This document shows positions 1 through 27,830 of a stretch of DNA of 27,830 nt, in pieces (the first letter of the stretch is position 1; each line of letters opens with the position of its first letter). The notes under the pieces were generated by a model, which was not told where the DNA came from, did not search any database, and saw only the letters and a program-made list of their open reading frames with translations. The stretch comes from a virus. The translations under genes were made by a program, and so were the position numbers. The DNA is taken from IMG/VR virus record IMGVR_UViG_3300021962_000509, positions 1-27,830 of that record; one strand, given 5' to 3'.

Positions 1-178
1 AAGTTAAAGCGAGTTTTTATATTTCCAAACATTTTGTCAAAATATTTTCATTTTTTTTGAAAGTTTCTTGAATCGAAAAACTAGCGAAATGCTGAAACCC
101 CGATAAAATCTATATTCTTTGTTTTTGGGATACGAAAAAAAAATTAAGGTTGAAAGATTTTTTTACAGATGTTAACCC

Positions 179-199
179 TTATTGTAAAAAGTACAATAA
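179..199. repeat. 21-bp palindrome, copy 1
   Basis: Perfect 8-bp inverted arms TTATTGTA and TACAATAA around AAAAG. One base downstream is TAATTTTG (201-208), which fits the Bacteroidota -7 consensus TAnnTTTG. The palindrome would therefore lie over the -33/-7 spacer of a possible promoter, a typical place for a repressor operator. No TTTG -33 element is present at the expected spacing. There is no T-run, so it is not a terminator. Confidence 0.75.
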
Positions 200-311: not shown

Positions 312-332
312 TTATTGTAAAAAGTACAATAA
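312..332. repeat. 21-bp palindrome, copy 2
   Basis: Identical to copy 1, including the AAAAG loop. It starts 133 bp after copy 1 and 32 bp before copy 3, about three helical turns, so proteins bound at copies 2 and 3 would sit on roughly the same DNA face. Likely a binding site for a dimeric regulator or initiator (inference). Confidence 0.75.
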
Positions 333-343
333 CATAAGATCAG

Positions 344-364
344 TTATTGTAAAAAGTACAATAA
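344..364. repeat. 21-bp palindrome, copy 3
   Basis: Third identical copy. DNA downstream of copies 1 and 3 also shares a degenerate block (GCAAAGTAA followed by ACTA or CTA, near 222 and 383), as if a longer unit had been duplicated and had decayed except for the palindrome. Confidence 0.75.
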
Positions 365-415: not shown

Positions 416-539
416 CGTGTGTGTGCGTGTGCGAGCGCGTGCGCGTGTACGTCTGCGCGCGTGTATCTGTGCGTGTGCGAGCGCCCGACGTGTGCGTGTG
501 TGCGTGTGTATATGTGCGTGTGCGCGTGTGCATATGTGC
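416..539. repeat. Alternating purine-pyrimidine GT/GC tract (Z-DNA prone)
   Basis: About 124 bp made almost entirely of GT, GC, AC and AT steps. Positions 488-539 alternate purine and pyrimidine without a break for 52 bp. The earlier part alternates in blocks of about 12-18 bp with single-base breaks near 434, 453, 467 and 480. Such tracts are classic Z-DNA formers under negative supercoiling. The G+C-rich composition contrasts sharply with the flanking A/T-rich DNA. It lies between the palindrome cluster and the first promoter. Confidence 0.85.
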
Positions 540-659
540 CCACAAAAACGCCAAAAAATCCGACGTGTACGACGTAAACGATACCCCACCCATTGAAAAA
601 AAAGTCGCTTTCCGATCGCGGCCCGCTCCGCAAAACCGCTATAGTACCCAAACACTCTA

Positions 660-690
660 TTTGTTTAATCAAAAAGTTTCATTACCTTTG
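660..690 (+). promoter_or_regulatory. Bacteroidota-type promoter for the 722 gene
   Basis: TTTG at 660-663, a 19-bp spacer, and TACCTTTG at 683-690 match the Bacteroidota primary-sigma consensus (TTTG, 19-21 bp, TAnnTTTG) at every fixed position. Transcription would start near 696-698, giving a leader of about 25 nt before the ATG at 722. Confidence 0.8.
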
Positions 691-721: not shown

Positions 722-970
722 ATGAGAGTAAATGGAATTAAGAACAGTATTTACGGCAGTTATGCCGGAGGGGATGGCTTGACCATGAAGAATGGCAGGT
801 TGATTAACAATAGACCATGTGGAGAGACTGGTATCGCTGAGATGGCTAGGGCTAGGAAGATGGCGAAGTATGAGGAGAAGGTGAGTATGATAGCTGAGGG
901 ATATGCACGTGGGGAGATGATGAGTGAGGCATCGGAGATGATGATGATGCCAATAAAGGTTAGGCGTTAG
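722..970 (+). CDS. Small hypothetical protein (82 aa)
   Basis: I do not recognise a characterised family. The N-terminal part (MRVNGIKNSIYGSYAGGDGLTMKNGRLINN) is Gly/Asn-rich. The C-terminal half is a helical, Met/Glu/Arg-rich stretch containing EMARARKMAKYEEK and ending EMMMMPIKVRR. The ATG at 722 is chosen because it follows the consensus promoter; the frame is open back to 593, but that upstream part would precede the transcription start. The gene is monocistronic, with its own promoter and a strong terminator 18 bp after the stop. An isolated, well-transcribed small gene next to a control region could encode an early host-takeover or regulatory protein (inference). Confidence 0.6.
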   Translation: MRVNGIKNSIYGSYAGGDGLTMKNGRLINNRPCGETGIAEMARARKMAKYEEKVSMIAEGYARGEMMSEASEMMMMPIKVRR

Positions 971-1358: not shown

Positions 1359-3002
1359 ATGTTTGACAGTTCAGGTTATTCACCCAAGGATTTGGTCTTT
1401 GGAGAGAAGGGTCGCAACAAGTTGATTGATGGCATCACTAAGATTGCTGATGCAGTAAAGAGTACCCTTGGCCCAGGGGGCAATACGGTGTTGATAGAGT
1501 CACCTCATCACACTCATGGTATCACGGTTACAAAGGATGGGGTTACAGTTGCAAAGGCTGTTGACCTATTTGATCCGGTAGAGAACCTTGCGGTTAGGAT
1601 GATGAAGGAGGCGGCTGAGCGTACCGCTACTAGTGCAGGTGATGGGACTACTACCTCGATTATCTTAACAGAGGCTATGGTCCTTGAGGGGACTAAGAGG
1701 CTAACGCCTGACGTGAATCGCACTGCGGTGCTGAGGTATTTGCATAATATGTGCAATGAGGTGGTCAGTCAGTTATCGGCAAAGGCTAAGAAGGTGACAA
1801 GTAAAATGATAGCTGACGTGGCGACTATATCAGCTAATAATGACAAGGAGATAGGGCGAATAATCGCTGAGGTGTATAAGGACATCGGGAGAGATGGCAT
1901 TGTCACTGTGGAGAAGAGCCAGACCCATGAGACGTATGCTGAGACCACCAAAGGTCTAAAGATTGACAGGGGCTATCTGTCAAATATGTTCATCAACGAC
2001 CAGAAAAAGGACGAGTGCGTATTTGAGGATGTGATGGTCTTGGTTGCTGACATTGAGATAAGTAATATCTTGCAGATTGAGAACATACTAAAGCCAATTA
2101 TCACTGAGGGCAAAAAGCTACTCATCATATCGCCATGCAGCGTGAATGTGGTTAATACTCTTGCGGCAAATGTTGTAAAGGGTAACGTCAAGGTCTGCGC
2201 CATTGCTCCGCCTAACTTTGGGTATAAGCAGCACGAGCTGATGCAGGACATCGCAATAAGTGTTGGGGCCAACTACTTCAGTGAGAAAACAGGTGACGAC
2301 TTGTCGCTCATCAACTATAGCGACTTAGGCCATGCGGCAAAAGTCATTATCTCATCTGACAAGACCATTCTTCTAAAGTCAAATGCGAGAGCAAAAGCTG
2401 AGCAGGTTGACGAGAGGGTCAAGCAACTATGGGCTGGTCATGGTCTTGCAAAGCGCAAAGCTGACAAAGACTTCATACTTGAGCGCATCGCTTCACTTAC
2501 TGGTGGTATCGGTGTGATATATGTCGGAGGTAATACTGACCTGGAGCAAAAGGAGCTGTATGATCGAGTTGACGATGCAGTATGCGCAGTGAGGTCTGCC
2601 TTAGAGGAGGGTATCCTTCCAGGAGCCGGCAAAGCACTCTACGAGATTGACCATAGTAAACTATTAGGTGACTATGACAATCATGAGCTAAACGTGGCAT
2701 GGCATATCATGGACGCAGCACTTGAGGCTCCAATCAAACAGATACTTAAAAATGTTGGGCTTGACTTTGAGACGGTGTATGAGTTCTTTACTCCTGAGGG
2801 ATATGACAAGGTGCCTGACGGTTATGGGTACAATGTCAAGACCGGTGAGTTCGGAGACCTCATCAAGATGGGTATCGTTGACCCATTGAAGGTCACAAGG
2901 AGCGCGCTGCAAAACGCAGTAAGTGTGGCATCAACAATTCTTAGCACTAACGCCATCATCACAATGGGTAGGAGCTTTGAGATTAGTAATTCTAAACAAT
3001 AA
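1359..3002 (+). CDS. groEL: Phage-encoded chaperonin GroEL (Cpn60, group I)
   Basis: Cytoplasmic ATP-driven folding chamber; 547 aa, the usual GroEL length. Visible landmarks are the nucleotide-site loop STLGPGG, TKDGVTVAK (the catalytic-region Asp equivalent to E. coli D52), AGDGTTT (D87 equivalent), apical-domain blocks ADIEISNILQIENI and LLIISP, and DRVDDAVCAVRSALEEG (D398 equivalent). The family GGG just after this is GAG here (PGAGKAL). The C-terminus ends SFEISNSKQ and lacks the GGM-repeat tail of bacterial GroEL. It is the first gene after a consensus promoter and is followed 5 bp later by the MazG-like gene. Its divergence and its location with virion genes make it a phage gene rather than host contamination. 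A partner GroES lies at 4860. Likely clients are virion proteins (inference). Confidence 0.95.
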   Translation: MFDSSGYSPKDLVFGEKGRNKLIDGITKIADAVKSTLGPGGNTVLIESPHHTHGITVTKDGVTVAKAVDLFDPVENLAVRMMKEAAERTATSAGDGTTTSIILTEAMVLEGTKRLTPDVNRTAVLRYLHNMCNEVVSQLSAKAKKVTSKMIADVATISANNDKEIGRIIAEVYKDIGRDGIVTVEKSQTHETYAETTKGLKIDRGYLSNMFINDQKKDECVFEDVMVLVADIEISNILQIENILKPIITEGKKLLIISPCSVNVVNTLAANVVKGNVKVCAIAPPNFGYKQHELMQDIAISVGANYFSEKTGDDLSLINYSDLGHAAKVIISSDKTILLKSNARAKAEQVDERVKQLWAGHGLAKRKADKDFILERIASLTGGIGVIYVGGNTDLEQKELYDRVDDAVCAVRSALEEGILPGAGKALYEIDHSKLLGDYDNHELNVAWHIMDAALEAPIKQILKNVGLDFETVYEFFTPEGYDKVPDGYGYNVKTGEFGDLIKMGIVDPLKVTRSALQNAVSVASTILSTNAIITMGRSFEISNSKQ

Positions 3003-17814: not shown

Positions 17815-18888
17815 ATGGAATTTAAAGCAGTAAGAGTATTAGACTCAACAGAACCCAAGAGTGTACAAGAGGTAGAAAAGGAACTTCTTGAGAAACATGA
17901 GCAATCATTATCGCAAGATATACCGCAAGAAGAATTTATTGCACCACAGCAGGAGATTGAGTTAAGAGAAGAAGACGTTCTTTCATATATAGGTAAAAGA
18001 TACAATAAGCAGATTAGCTCATTCGATGAATTGATGGCTGAGCGCAACTCAGAGGAGATGCCAGAGGATGTGGCTGCTTATATGAAATATAGAAAAGATA
18101 CAGGAAGAGGATTTGAAGACTTTCTCAAGTTGAAGAAAGATTTCGATTCTGTTCCGGAAGAACAGCTGCTTAAAGAGTATTTGTTATCTACACAAGAGGG
18201 TCTTGACGAAGATGACGTTGAGATGATGTTGGATGAGTACAGGTATGACGAGGACCTTGATGACGAGTCTTATATTAAGAAGACGAAGATATCAAGAAAG
18301 AAAGCTGTTAATGAGGCAAAGAAGTTTTTCAATTCTCAGAAAGAGATGTATAAGATGCCCCTTGAGTCAAGTACGGCAGGTATGTCTCAGGAAGAGAAAG
18401 AGGAGTTCAATGCTTATCGTCAATATATGCAACAGGCTAAGACGATCGAGGAGGAGAATAATCGTAAGCGTCAATGGTTTGAACAAAAAACCAATGAGGT
18501 ATTTGATGGTAATTTCAAAGGTTTTGAATTTAGTGTCAATAACAAAAAGCTTAATTTTAATCCTGGTGATGCTAATGAGCTTAAAAAGTTACACTCAAAT
18601 CCATCAAGCTTTATCGGTAAGTTTATCGATGATAGCGGCTTGATTAAAGATGCAGGTGGCTACCATAAAGCTTTGGCTGTTGCAATGAACCCTGAGAGGT
18701 TTGCCAAGTTCTTCTATGAGCAAGGTATGACTGATGCAGCAGATGACTTTATGCGTAAGACAAAAAATATCAATATGTCTGAGCGTAGAGCAAATGAGAC
18801 AACGAGGGTGAATGATGGGTTTCAGGTTAAAGCGGTTAATCCTGACCATGGAAAAAGCTTAAAAATCCGCAGCATAAAAAAATTGTAG
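17815..18888 (+). CDS. Capsid scaffolding protein (putative)
   Basis: 357 aa, strongly acidic and helical: long Glu-rich stretches (EVEKELLEKHEQSLSQ, EEGLDEDD-type blocks), a middle coiled-coil-like region (AYRQYMQQAKTIEEENNRKRQWFEQ), and a basic C-terminus (GKSLKIRSIKKL). Scaffolds are typically acidic, helical and bind the capsid protein through a basic C-terminal helix. The position directly before MCP fits. No protease domain is seen. Arg codons are AGA/AGG early but include CGT from about 18416 on, approaching the usage of the following MCP gene. Confidence 0.75.
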   Translation: MEFKAVRVLDSTEPKSVQEVEKELLEKHEQSLSQDIPQEEFIAPQQEIELREEDVLSYIGKRYNKQISSFDELMAERNSEEMPEDVAAYMKYRKDTGRGFEDFLKLKKDFDSVPEEQLLKEYLLSTQEGLDEDDVEMMLDEYRYDEDLDDESYIKKTKISRKKAVNEAKKFFNSQKEMYKMPLESSTAGMSQEEKEEFNAYRQYMQQAKTIEEENNRKRQWFEQKTNEVFDGNFKGFEFSVNNKKLNFNPGDANELKKLHSNPSSFIGKFIDDSGLIKDAGGYHKALAVAMNPERFAKFFYEQGMTDAADDFMRKTKNINMSERRANETTRVNDGFQVKAVNPDHGKSLKIRSIKKL

Positions 18889-23174: not shown

Positions 23175-26100
23175 ATGGCGAATTTTACAAGGAACTTTAT
23201 TGCCGGTAAAATGAATAAGACATTCGATGAGCGAGTAGTCCCTGATGGGGAGTACATTGACGCTATGAATGTCAGGATGGGATCGACAGAGAAGTCGGAG
23301 GCAGGAGTTATTGAGAATACGAATGGTAACTTGCCATTGACTGCGTTAGCTTATAATGGTACTCAATTGAGTACTGATGCAAGATGCATAGGTGCTATCA
23401 ATGACAGCGCAAGAGAGACCTTGTATTGGTTTGTTCACGACCCTAATTTCCAAGGCAGTAAAACAACAAATAAGATCGACCTTGTTGTTTCTTTTAATAT
23501 GGTGTCTCAGGCATTGACATATCATATTGTTAGTGTAAATGATGGCGGAGGGGTAAATACTACATTGAATTTTAATCCTTACTATTTGATTACAGGAGTT
23601 GACATTGTTGAGGATTTATTATTTTGGACTGACGACTATAATCAGCCTAGATTTATAAATATCAATAGAGGATACGCCAATCCTGATGGCTCAGGCATTG
23701 ACTATAATGGGCAGCCTGATCTGCTCAGAGAGACAATCCTTGTTATTAAGAAGCCACCTACCGAAGCGCCAACGATAGCTCTTTTAAATACTGTAGGAGA
23801 GGAGAATTATTTAGAGGACAGATTTATTTGTTTTGCTTATAGATATAGATATGCAGACGGACAATACAGCGCTACGTCACAATGGTCTGAGCCTTCTTTT
23901 TTGCCAAAACCTTTTTCGTTTAGTCCAAGTAGTTTTTTAAATGAAGGAATGATAAATGATTATAATGGAGTTAATTTCTATTATAACACAGGAGGTCCTT
24001 TAGTAGTTGGTATCGATTTGCTTTTTAAGCAAGCAACAGGTAACGTAATAAATATAATTGAAAAGGTTGATAAAAGCATTATGGGCCTTTCAGATAATAC
24101 TATTGTTACTTATTTTTTTAATAATAGCAAGATTTATACCATACTTCCAGAGTCTGAACTACTTAGATTATATGACAATGTCCCAAGACTCGCTAAGGCT
24201 CAAACAATTATGGGTAATAGGTTAATGTATGGGAATTATGTGGATGGATATGATTTAGTTGATAGTAATGGATTTCCTACTTTGCTAGAGTATACTACAA
24301 GTTTAATTAGTGAAGAAATAAATAATTCTATAATTCCTAGTACTTTAGATACAACAACATACACTTGGGATGTTCCTTACACGGTCGTTAATTCTTCATT
24401 GATTGTTGATTTCTCAGGAGTTGATTTAATCGAAGGCGTATTGATTACTTTTACAGTTTCGATTTTTCACGATTCATTTACAGGGTCTACTCCGTATCCT
24501 ACACAAACAACAGGAACTACACAAGTAGATTTTTCAATATACCTGCAAAATACATACTCCTCAGTTTATGCCTTTGCAACAAGTACTGAGTTTTTAGAAG
24601 CAATAGGAACTTCATTGCCTAGTGGCAACATTCAATTAGTTTACAATCCAAGTGGTAACGATTCATGTGATGGGATTACGTTTACTGATGCATATAATTG
24701 CTATCTCCCTTACTCATTAGATGCGCTTGTAAAGGTAGATACAGGAATAAGTACAGGCGGTCAATCTATACAAATAATAGCAACTCCATCTTCAAACCAA
24801 GTACAATTTTTATTTTTAGCCGCAAAATACGTTGACAACCCAACAACTCCAACTAAAACGGTATATGAATACTATAAAATTGTAAACCATGTTGTTCAGT
24901 ATTTAGGAATAGGAGTTCCAAAAAGCTTGCATAGTAATAGAGGGTATGAGATAGGAATGGTTTATATGGATGAATTTGCAAGATCTACCCCTGCAAACGT
25001 AAGCCCTTTAAATAATGTTTTTGTTCCTTGTTCTTATTCAAAGAATAAAAACTCAATTACAGTAACAATACCCCCTGCTCAAGTAGCTCCTTTTTGGGCA
25101 ACTCGTTATAAGTTCGTATGTAAAGCTGACCAACACATATATGAAACTATTTATTCTAATATTTATTTTGAGGATCCAGATAGTAACGATGTTTATTTTT
25201 TACTAGAGGGTGAAAACGCAAGAAAAGTAGAAGAAGGAGATAGGCTTATTGTAAAAGCAGATTCTGCTGGACCAAAAGATAATTGTACATATATAACTGT
25301 TTTAAATAAAGAAGCTCAGCAATCAGGTTTTATTAGCCCATTGAATAATGTAGTACCTCCATCAGGAGTTTACATGAAAATAGTTTCTAGTGAGATATCT
25401 GTGGATCCAAGCGCTTCTGCAAATGTAAGCAGGTTTAGTAGAAGATATACAGCAGATGGCACTGTAACGTTAGATATAACAATGAATGTTACTGGAACGG
25501 ACCCATTAAATCCAACATGGACTTATATCGATTATCCTGTTCCTACCGGAAGTAGAATAAAATTAAAAGTAGATAATCATGTAAACGGCAATACTGTATG
25601 TGAAGAAAGAAGATATAATTTAGATAAGGAATATATAGTTGAAAATGACTATGCTAATATATATGATTGGTTTATAGGAGATGGAATAGCTTCAACACTA
25701 ACAGGGACAGTTACACCAAGCGCAGTTTCTGCAACATTTTTATCAGGACTAGGCCCTATTCCTACTCCCCCATTTTCAGGGTACGATGAGGTATATGATG
25801 TAGTTTATAAATTTGATAGAAATCTAACAACAAATAAACTTACATTAAGGATAAGGTCATTTAGAGCGTGTAATACTTGGTTCCCTGGTCCTAATACAAG
25901 GACAATAATATCGTGTGATTTTGATTTTGTTTCAGGCGGTAATAATATTTTTATATTTGAAACTCAGCCAATTGACACACTACCTGATGTATTCTTCGAG
26001 AATAACCTATCGTTCCCGATTGATGCAAATGGCAATCACCTGTCAAATGGTGCATTTGGAGACCAATCGCAAGACATAGCAACAAGTACCCCTGCAATAA

Positions 26101-27830
26101 TTCAAACAGGGTTCTTTAACTGCTTCGCTTTTGGCAATGGTGCCGAGAGCTACAAGATAAGGGACTCAATCATTGGTAGAGACTTTAACCTTGGCAATAG
26201 GGTGACAACAGTAGCCGCTCAGGACTATAAAGAGTCAAGGCGCTTTGCTGACATCACCTATAGTGGTGTGTATAATCCTGAGACCAATGTCAATAAGCTC
26301 AATGAGTTCAATGGGGCATTGCTCAATTATAAGAACCTTGAGCTGTCATTTGGCACCATATACATCCTTGATGGTAGAGAGACTGACGTGCTAGTCCTAC
26401 AAGAGGACAAGGTGTCATACGTTCTTGCAGGTAAGAATCTATTATCTGATGCTGCTGCCGGTGGTGCTATCACCTCAATCCCTGAGGTATTGGGTACGCA
26501 GATAGCGAGAGTCGAGAACTATGGCATAAGCTTCAATCCTGAGAGCTACTCTAAGTGGGGTTATGACAAGTTCTTTACTGATGCCAAAAGAGGCGCAGTG
26601 ATACAGCTTAAAGGAAACTCATACTCTAATGAGCAGCTCGCAGTCATCTCTGATATGAATATGAGGACATGGTTTAGAGATGAGTTTATCGCAAGGTTCA
26701 ATACACAAAAGCTCGGAGCATTTGACCCATACATGAACGAGTATGTGCTGACGCTTAACGACAGGGAGATACCAATGGAGGAGGAATGCATCAAGTGTGG
26801 TGTTACTAGAACTTTCACGTTTGCTCAAGGCAAGATAACATCTGAGATAAATTTCTGCGTAGACTTTGCTACTAAAATTGGTCCTGTAAATGTGGATTGG
26901 ATTGTGCAGACTATTGACGGTGATGCTGACTTTGTTATTGATGTAGAATATGATGGCAATACTTATACGTCAGGATTGCAAACTTCATCAGGATATTTTG
27001 ACTTTTTTAAGGCTACTCAATTGCCATCTACAGGGAACGTTACCATTACAGCTACAGGCAATATTGTGCTTAGTGTAACTGTTGGATGTCCAGTGCCAAT
27101 ACCAATGACACTTGTAGAGGTGGTACTCACAGATGATTGCGATGCAGGATTGGCTACATTGAAGCAGTTTAATTATGTCAATGGGCCATTTACCTCACCA
27201 ACACAGTCCAACTTCTTTATCTTCACGTCAGGGACAAATAACCCATTGGTGTCATACTACCTTACAACGAGTGGCTTTGAGGGGCAGGGTAGCTTACCAC
27301 CGGAGGGAGCGCTAATGACATTGCAGATAAATGAGACACCACCATATGTGTCGTATGTATTTGAGCCAGGACAGAATAAGTTCAGATATCTAAGGTCAAA
27401 CGTACTATATGGAAACAATGATGGGGATATGCAGACATTGCTATCGTTAGATAGTACAGCTACGCCTATTGTCAATCCATCACCAGGTATCTATAATGCT
27501 ACATTTACAGTACCTCCAACGGTTGATGGGCTGTATCTGTACGCTATATGGGACTTGCGCTCATCTATTGGTGTACAACTTTGTTATGACCCTGAGTCGT
27601 TAGAGGCTGTGTGCTGCGAATGTCTGCCATGTACAGAGCTATGCAACTCTTATGTATTCTCAAATCCAAAACAGGCAACTGAGAATGCAATTATAGAGTT
27701 TCCTCTTGGCTTATGTGGATCGCCTGAGACACACACAGAGACCCTAGCGCCTAACGCGTCAATAATTTTGTGCATACCAAATGACAAAGACAATTATATT
27801 ATTCTACAAGGAAGTCCAATCATTTACATG
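23175..27830 (+). CDS. Phage stabilisation / tail muzzle protein (partial, open at right edge)
   Basis: Uninterrupted frame of at least 1552 codons from ATG 23175 to the window end. The N-terminus NFTRNFIAGKMNKTFDERVVPDGEYIDAMNVRMGSTEKSEAGVIENTNGN is the signature of proteins annotated as phage stabilisation protein and, in crAss-like virions, tail muzzle. Further conserved blocks: LLFWTDDYNQPRFININRG, FICFAYRYRYADGQYSATSQWS, LPESELLRLYDNVPRLAKAQTIMGNRLMYGNYVDGYD. Later comes SYSKWGYDKFFTDAKRGAVIQLKG, typical of host-contact β-regions. Cysteine clusters occur at ECIKCG (near residue 1205) and CCECLPCTELC (1480-1490). The stop codon and any further domains lie beyond the window. Confidence 0.85.
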   Translation, partial: MANFTRNFIAGKMNKTFDERVVPDGEYIDAMNVRMGSTEKSEAGVIENTNGNLPLTALAYNGTQLSTDARCIGAINDSARETLYWFVHDPNFQGSKTTNKIDLVVSFNMVSQALTYHIVSVNDGGGVNTTLNFNPYYLITGVDIVEDLLFWTDDYNQPRFININRGYANPDGSGIDYNGQPDLLRETILVIKKPPTEAPTIALLNTVGEENYLEDRFICFAYRYRYADGQYSATSQWSEPSFLPKPFSFSPSSFLNEGMINDYNGVNFYYNTGGPLVVGIDLLFKQATGNVINIIEKVDKSIMGLSDNTIVTYFFNNSKIYTILPESELLRLYDNVPRLAKAQTIMGNRLMYGNYVDGYDLVDSNGFPTLLEYTTSLISEEINNSIIPSTLDTTTYTWDVPYTVVNSSLIVDFSGVDLIEGVLITFTVSIFHDSFTGSTPYPTQTTGTTQVDFSIYLQNTYSSVYAFATSTEFLEAIGTSLPSGNIQLVYNPSGNDSCDGITFTDAYNCYLPYSLDALVKVDTGISTGGQSIQIIATPSSNQVQFLFLAAKYVDNPTTPTKTVYEYYKIVNHVVQYLGIGVPKSLHSNRGYEIGMVYMDEFARSTPANVSPLNNVFVPCSYSKNKNSITVTIPPAQVAPFWATRYKFVCKADQHIYETIYSNIYFEDPDSNDVYFLLEGENARKVEEGDRLIVKADSAGPKDNCTYITVLNKEAQQSGFISPLNNVVPPSGVYMKIVSSEISVDPSASANVSRFSRRYTADGTVTLDITMNVTGTDPLNPTWTYIDYPVPTGSRIKLKVDNHVNGNTVCEERRYNLDKEYIVENDYANIYDWFIGDGIASTLTGTVTPSAVSATFLSGLGPIPTPPFSGYDEVYDVVYKFDRNLTTNKLTLRIRSFRACNTWFPGPNTRTIISCDFDFVSGGNNIFIFETQPIDTLPDVFFENNLSFPIDANGNHLSNGAFGDQSQDIATSTPAIIQTGFFNCFAFGNGAESYKIRDSIIGRDFNLGNRVTTVAAQDYKESRRFADITYSGVYNPETNVNKLNEFNGALLNYKNLELSFGTIYILDGRETDVLVLQEDKVSYVLAGKNLLSDAAAGGAITSIPEVLGTQIARVENYGISFNPESYSKWGYDKFFTDAKRGAVIQLKGNSYSNEQLAVISDMNMRTWFRDEFIARFNTQKLGAFDPYMNEYVLTLNDREIPMEEECIKCGVTRTFTFAQGKITSEINFCVDFATKIGPVNVDWIVQTIDGDADFVIDVEYDGNTYTSGLQTSSGYFDFFKATQLPSTGNVTITATGNIVLSVTVGCPVPIPMTLVEVVLTDDCDAGLATLKQFNYVNGPFTSPTQSNFFIFTSGTNNPLVSYYLTTSGFEGQGSLPPEGALMTLQINETPPYVSYVFEPGQNKFRYLRSNVLYGNNDGDMQTLLSLDSTATPIVNPSPGIYNATFTVPPTVDGLYLYAIWDLRSSIGVQLCYDPESLEAVCCECLPCTELCNSYVFSNPKQATENAIIEFPLGLCGSPETHTETLAPNASIILCIPNDKDNYIILQGSPIIYM

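Follow-up and report, generated by a model that had tools for sequence, protein, structure and literature searches.

A G+C-rich simple-sequence insert of changing wording at one control-region site in a family of GroEL-encoding podophages

Z-DNA-prone tracts and simple-sequence loci are kinds of element that are already known, and so are viral control regions rich in repeats. In viruses, the hrs of baculoviruses and the reiterations of herpesviruses are non-coding, repeat-rich control or origin regions that lie beside palindromic sites; they are polymorphic in length and lineage-specific in sequence, and their layout persists. In bacteria, microsatellite or contingency loci carry unit-length slippage alleles in or near promoters. 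An element equivalent to the one presented here was not described in the open-access literature searched, outside of which most subscription papers lie.

The DNA analysed, hereafter the window, spans all 27,830 bases of an IMG/VR record that is classed as linear. It codes for GroEL and GroES, a pyrophosphatase, a large terminase and a P22-like portal, and for the beginning of a giant protein. The contig belongs to a podophage that encodes GroEL and has Elemovirus and Pachyviridae as relatives. The nearest deposited genome is MW202828.1, which is circular and 60,850 bp long (L113; TerL 78%, GroEL 61%), and in which two gene arms diverge at the place matching the control region of the window. 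Among cultured phages, the closest are Elemovirus (Flavobacterium; TerL 45.5%) together with Cellulophaga phi18:3 and phi19:3 (TerL ~39%). The family seems to have Bacteroidota-type bacteria as hosts; identification of the host through bacterial genomes gave no match. Searches with P0001, the first protein of the right arm, returned no Pfam or PHROG match; its family has a GRLINN...KVSMIAEG core and is present in at least 124 viral stretches. At the other end of the window, the giant open frame (23175-27830, 1552 aa, open at the contig end) is homologous in place to a 3859-aa protein of MW202828.1, for which no significant family match was obtained. The idea that this giant right-end protein is an N4-like virion RNA polymerase, with the palindromes as hairpin promoters, was dropped, since it found no support in Pfam, PHROG or PDB.

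Table 1. Features of the control region and of the first genes of the right arm (positions in the window).
Feature	Position	Strand	Remarks
Leftward Bacteroidota-type promoter (inferred)	1-29	-	TTTG at 29-26, 19-nt spacer, then TAACTT.., truncated by the end of the contig; read from sequence
Perfect 21-bp palindrome TTATTGTA-AAAAG-TACAATAA, copy 1	179-199		putative operator/initiator site
Perfect 21-bp palindrome, copy 2	312-332		
Perfect 21-bp palindrome, copy 3	344-364		
G+C-rich alternating purine/pyrimidine simple-sequence tract	416-539		low-complexity G+C-rich site in relatives too, with other sequence
Conserved A-block (AAAAACGCCAAAAAATC)	543-560		delimits the hypervariable tract sharply on its right
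Conserved C-block and A-run (ACCCCACCCATTGAAAAAAAA)	583-603		family consensus acCCCCaCCCCc..aaAAAAAa
Conserved element upstream of the rightward promoter (TCG.TTTCGG...CCGCTATA..ACCCAAACACT)	604-655		
Rightward Bacteroidota-type promoter TTTG-N19-TACCTTTG	660-690	+	also given as TTTG-N19-TANNTTTG
P0001, 82-aa protein	722-970	+	first gene of the right arm; no Pfam or PHROG match
GroEL	1359-3002	+	PHROG 5725, E 1.9e-132; phylogenetic marker for the family

The initial annotation had described a G+C-rich island between a group of palindromes and a promoter, and the layout of Table 1 agrees with it. Both recognisable promoters are directed away from the tract. For the leftward one, a complete -7 motif, TAACTTTG, is found at the homologous place in a relative (L107); for the rightward one, the -7 motif TAtcTTTg is present in the family consensus. 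Another leftward promoter, TATCTTTG at 402-395, is not kept in the related loci L025 and L023 and was set aside. On the right side of the tract, positions 543-655 and their homologues form a conserved non-coding stretch, AAAA.GCCAAAAAATC ... ACCCCCACCCCC..AAAAAA ... GCTATATAGCCC, which precedes the groEL-arm promoter family-wide. The consensus of the A-block in 64 loci is AAAA.GCcAAAAAatc, and a diverged form of the A/C-block also occurs in Elemovirus NC_055853.1. In the conserved block and the 604-655 element, no consensus RNA structure was found, RNAalifold giving no pairs.

The left side is more particular to each lineage. By pattern search, exact copies of the 21-bp palindrome are few among the relatives, G006 (60.2 kb) having both at its control region. 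In most relatives, the tract has on its left a palindrome particular to the lineage: GTGTCTTYRAAGACAC is the commonest, and TTAGTGT-N7-ACACTAA, TTAGTTTACATTCTAAACTAA, TGCAACAATGTTGCA and AACTAACRTTYGTTAGTT also occur; these lineage-specific palindromes stand ~95-260 bp left of the conserved block (L039, L040, L055, L061, L067, L072, L082 and others). Judging by them, it is as if operator specificity were also quick to change. In MW202828.1, a perfect 16-bp palindrome, GTGTCGTTAACGACAC, occurs 14 times between 43745 and 55154, always in the early arm, and five of the copies (45596, 45886, 47653, 48929 and 49874) begin exactly 4 bases past an annotated gene end. Two small proteins of the same early arm (18034-18336 and 27108-27677) match the C-terminal DNA-binding domain of DnaA and are candidates for binding the palindromes of the control region.

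In the tract of the window, 112 of the 123 steps alternate between purine and pyrimidine, mostly as GT and GC (91%, vs. 49% on average in the window). As the initial annotation had it, alternation is unbroken for 52 bp, exactly from 488 to 539, and nearly so in the preceding part, where runs of 18, 18, 13 and 12 bp follow one another. Such a tract is indeed unusual for the contig: the best other 124-bp window has 80/123 alternating steps, no alternating run elsewhere is longer than 12 bp, and the longest in 200 contigs simulated by a first-order Markov model is 21. With a GC content of 64%, vs. 39% for the contig, the tract also contains the G+C-richest 120 bp (0.64; next 0.55) and the simplest 120 bp (37 distinct 4-mers; next 45), and its low complexity exceeds what composition gives (z -11.8). 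It is not the artefact of a single assembly, because contig IMGVR 3300021961_001593 (L003) carries an identical tract and different alternating tracts occupy the same site in other contigs. The words used in the lineage of the window, GTGCGTGT, account for the near-perfect alternation and make Z-DNA possible. Since GT/GC words avoid stops, open frames span the tract; a coding function was nevertheless rejected, the alleles being fully replaced without a shared frame. In MW202828.1, a deposited hypothetical protein (UOF82531.1, 42896-43219) is annotated across the simple-sequence tract, and is probably spurious.

The site was compared among relatives by anchoring on the conserved block and taking the 120 bp that precede it. 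This was done in 69 loci recovered by way of GroEL and, after the hypothesis had been formed, in 28 new loci found through the 82-aa protein, with the same 120-bp cut-off. In the GroEL-anchored set, whose loci are related so that counts are not independent, GC is above the local mean in 68/69 loci (by at least 0.08 in 60/69), simplicity lies more than 3 sd below shuffles in 60/69 (background mean ~-1), and G exceeds C in 64/69. In the new loci, the series of tests gave 28/28, 27/28 and 23/28, of which 28/28 refers to GC above the local mean and 23/28 to simplicity; these figures are approximate, as the anchor caught a slightly different point in a few of the loci. Of 90 tracts, 58 have G as their commonest base, and no G bias is seen in the tracts of L057, L064 and L037. 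From the nearest palindrome on the left to the block, the distance is mostly 95-165 bp. The words themselves vary by lineage, for instance GTGCGT, GCAGG, GGACGG, GAACCAAC or CGTTACG, and also GACG/CAG (L022), GGGAGCGGGAG (L042), GGCAGG (L055), GGACGGAC (L043), GAGCGAGC (L074), CGTTACGTGAAACC (L075), ACTAACGGGGACG (L095), GAACCAACG (L146 and L151) and GGCTGTAGC (L152). As far as these loci are representative, a ~125-base G+C-rich, repeat-like, non-coding insert is present at one site family-wide, conserved in position and physical character, and the GT/GC stretch of the window is one lineage's version of it.

The initial annotation had pointed to conservation of alternation, rather than of sequence, among related phages as a check on the tract. 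Such conservation holds only weakly. Strong alternation is found in only ~13 of 87 tracts, and 8 of the 69 GroEL loci reach 0.8 or more; it is confined to the clade of the window, L033, L012, L101/L102/L105, L149, L168 and L179, while L111 and L175 fall in between. Full alternation has recurred in ~7-9 lineages. Most relatives have no alternating tract at this place, an outcome that the initial annotation had named as speaking against its view, with alternation at ~0.35-0.69 and longest runs of ~4-16 bp. They include L022, whose GroEL is 96% identical to that of the window and whose GACG/CAG tract alternates at 0.67. On the GroEL tree, the alternating state changes at least six times, and non-alternating L022 nests among the window, L025 and L023, where the nearest branches have a support of only 84-91. 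A weaker bias is nonetheless shared. Tracts with less than 70% alternation still alternate more than their composition would give (mean z 1.83; background -0.19). Because short repeats by themselves inflate this measure, steps between unlike bases were compared alone: the log2 ratio of alternating to non-alternating unlike steps is 0.63, vs. 0.02 both in the background and in equally simple background windows. Among hand-picked clade representatives, 36 of 43 are positive for the bias (p=4e-6, for loci that are related). The alternation bias of the family is real but modest, and an origin as a mere by-product of short repeats is mostly excluded, since the enrichment among unlike steps is limited to the alternating kind and background windows of equal simplicity do not show the effect.

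These data bear on whether the tract is a selected Z-DNA element, whose left-handed flip would absorb negative supercoils between the two divergent promoters. The extent of alternation in the tract of the window speaks for it, as do the appearance of strong alternation in several separate lineages and the bias kept by non-alternating tracts. With approximate textbook energies, the B-to-Z transition of 488-539 is estimated at a superhelical density of ~-0.04 to -0.05, which would be physiologically reachable. Moreover, the window and L025 differ at 42 tract positions, by 31 transitions and 11 transversions, and both remain ~90% alternating; however, aligning two alternating sequences in phase gives mostly transitions by construction. 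The runs of most relatives are too short for a 50-bp Z segment, one of these relatives being L022, and the repeated changes on the GroEL tree point the same way. The view of the tract as Z-prone in the initial annotation therefore stands for the tract of the window and not as a conserved feature. Z-DNA is possible in this tract, yet it cannot be the shared function, and we regard a selected Z-DNA element as unlikely.

Comparisons between close relatives indicate how the letters change. L079 and L080 are 93-100% identical over the 700 bp right of the tract and ~50% within it, and L037/L038 follow a similar pattern. L022 and L025 are 88-97% identical just left of the tract, 31-32% inside it and 82% in the block; L055 and L067 are 75-98% identical to the left (several bins), 33-63% in the tract and 97% in the block. 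Between L168, which alternates, and L169, which has AGCAACGAAGG words and does not, identity is 100% over more than 1 kb starting at the block, against ~29% in the tract. The A-block is the recombination border in this pair; left of the block the two are unrelated, and their left contig ends are close by, which leaves the exchange bounded on the right only. In L079/L080, L168/L169, L022/L025 and L055/L067, the tract thus turns over faster than its flanks. Recombination is also indicated by L067, which shares its tract type with L054 and not with its nearest relative, L055. On a finer scale, the two contig ends of G004, like those of G001, both reach across the tract. Their copies of it differ by one 6-base unit in G004 and by 3 bases, within a CAGGG repeat, in G001; these differences may reflect population alleles or assembly error. 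Finally, left ends of contigs cluster near the site: a segment 600-1300 bp upstream of groEL, 14% of the span, contains 16 of 44 (p=1.8e-4). Either a polymorphic site or a repeat that breaks assemblies would be expected to have this effect. Replacement of sequence is established by these comparisons, and the two overlaps point to possible alleles of unit length.

The main alternative to a maintained element is that the tract is neutral, hypermutable filler, re-created by slippage and recombination and tolerated as nothing important lies inside. Complete turnover between near-identical phages and apparent alleles of unit size speak for it, and neither conserved words, a conserved RNA fold nor an essential reading frame was found. 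However, the tract is present in nearly every sampled relative, at one place, with similar length, and is G+C-rich and G-biased in A+T-rich genomes, where unconstrained filler would be expected to drift toward A+T or to vanish. Its alternation bias also exceeds that of equally simple background windows. We consider neutral filler unlikely, while keeping it as the first explanation to be weighed against ours.

Conversely, change itself could be selected. The tract might be a diversifying non-coding determinant, such as a tag for origin compatibility or exclusion, or a means of escape from a host defence that reads sequence. Replacement of the whole tract with intact flanks, tract types common to separate lineages, and word sets as unlike as GTGCGT and GAACCAAC at one site are consistent with this. 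However, a search that was not systematic found no co-varying partner gene, simple repeats are poor carriers of specific information, and mutation with recombination is enough to account for the pattern; we give this reading very little credence. A related version, an actively diversified non-coding module at the origin or early switch, swapped and regrown again and again, whose physical character is needed and whose sequence is pressed to differ, for example through origin compatibility in co-infection or escape from a sequence-reading defence, appears quite improbable as well. Alternating poly(CA/GT) DNA is known as a product of the host defence DRT3 (PMC13174585); a link with the tract was considered and set aside, as nothing connects the two.

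The strand bias raises the question of whether the tract acts as RNA, as a G-rich leader or primer whose R-loop would start replication. The excess of G over C, the frequency of G as commonest base and the position at a skew minimum would suit such a role. However, the recognisable promoters face away on both sides and none was seen for the tract, and the three tracts without G bias do not fit. Folding of the tract RNA is not consistently better than that of shuffles on either strand (mean z -0.76 on the plus strand and 0.02 on the minus strand, with wide spread). A conserved or Rfam RNA was rejected, the Rfam matches being sub-threshold and of low complexity. A transcribed element is accordingly very improbable in our view.

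An origin of replication had also been suggested at this site, and the suggestion is plausible. In MW202828.1, the minimum of the cumulative GC skew falls in the bin at 43,251, beside the tract (42,966-~43,230), which is the simplest 120 bp of that genome. In Elemovirus, the minimum is at 18,251 and the diverged block at ~18,690. Since divergent transcription alone also yields such a minimum, an origin is not proven by it; the minimum fits either a replication origin or a mere point of divergent transcription. The palindrome array at 179-364, made of putative initiator sites, lies in A+T-rich DNA, and no excess of DnaA boxes was seen. Two other roles proposed in the initial annotation, in packaging and in the exclusion of nucleosome-like proteins, received no support here.

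The reading that we favour, and to which we give about even chances, takes the tract for a spacer of G+C-rich simple sequence, hypermutable and subject to recombination, which is kept for its length and physical properties in the bidirectional control region of this family of GroEL podophages. To its left the spacer would have the array of palindromes, as sites of protein binding, and to its right the conserved block and late-arm promoter; its place would be the GC-skew minimum, possibly a replication origin, from which the gene arms diverge. Place, length (~95-165 bp), G+C-richness, the strand bias of G over C, repetitiveness and the mild alternation bias would be maintained, while the words would turn over through repeat slippage and whole-tract recombination, with a sharp border at the A-block. 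The tract could then act as a physical element, responsive to supercoiling, resistant to melting or simply spacing, between a left unwinding or operator region and the right block. We infer that the region may be an origin and the tract a physical element, most likely a supercoil-responsive or non-melting G+C-rich spacer between the A+T-rich palindrome side and the right block. An architecture of this kind can do without the tract, since Elemovirus has a diverged A/C-block near its skew minimum without a G+C-rich simple tract.

A physical property of the DNA, rather than its letters, thus appears to be kept at this site. If the spacer reading is true, a large uncultured phage family keeps a non-coding element by its physical character while the letters are rewritten even between near-identical phages. 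Natural swaps, such as L168 vs. L169, would then let one ask whether DNA mechanics, and not base recognition, counts at a phage control region. The same reading may explain why assemblies of the family's genomes frequently break near the tract.

How does the locus compare with known systems? The related phages Elemovirus and Baltivirus (Pachyviridae; Cellulophaga phi18:3) are, like this family, podophages of ~60-75 kb, with TerL 45.5% and 39% identical. Elemovirus further shares GroEL, divergent arms and the diverged A/C-block near the skew minimum, and differs by the missing G+C-rich simple tract at the corresponding place; in Cellulophaga phi18:3, no conserved block was found in the 43 kb examined. 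With Z-DNA-forming tracts, the window has in common long CG/GT alternation, G+C-richness and a position upstream of promoters, where negative supercoiling is expected, whereas at this fixed, hypervariable site the alternating words are one set among many, and most relatives carry tracts that are not Z-prone. Bacterial contingency loci have unit-length slippage alleles near promoters, which the phage tract may share; in contrast, the phage tract is made of degenerate mixed words instead of a single clean unit, its whole set is replaced, and no phase-variable gene is apparent. Compared with baculovirus hrs and herpesvirus reiterations, the phage tract is single, ~125 bp long, present in tailed phages and sharply bounded by a conserved block, and its origin or enhancer role is putative; like them, it is repeat-rich, adjacent to palindromes and polymorphic in length, and its layout is kept while its sequence differs.
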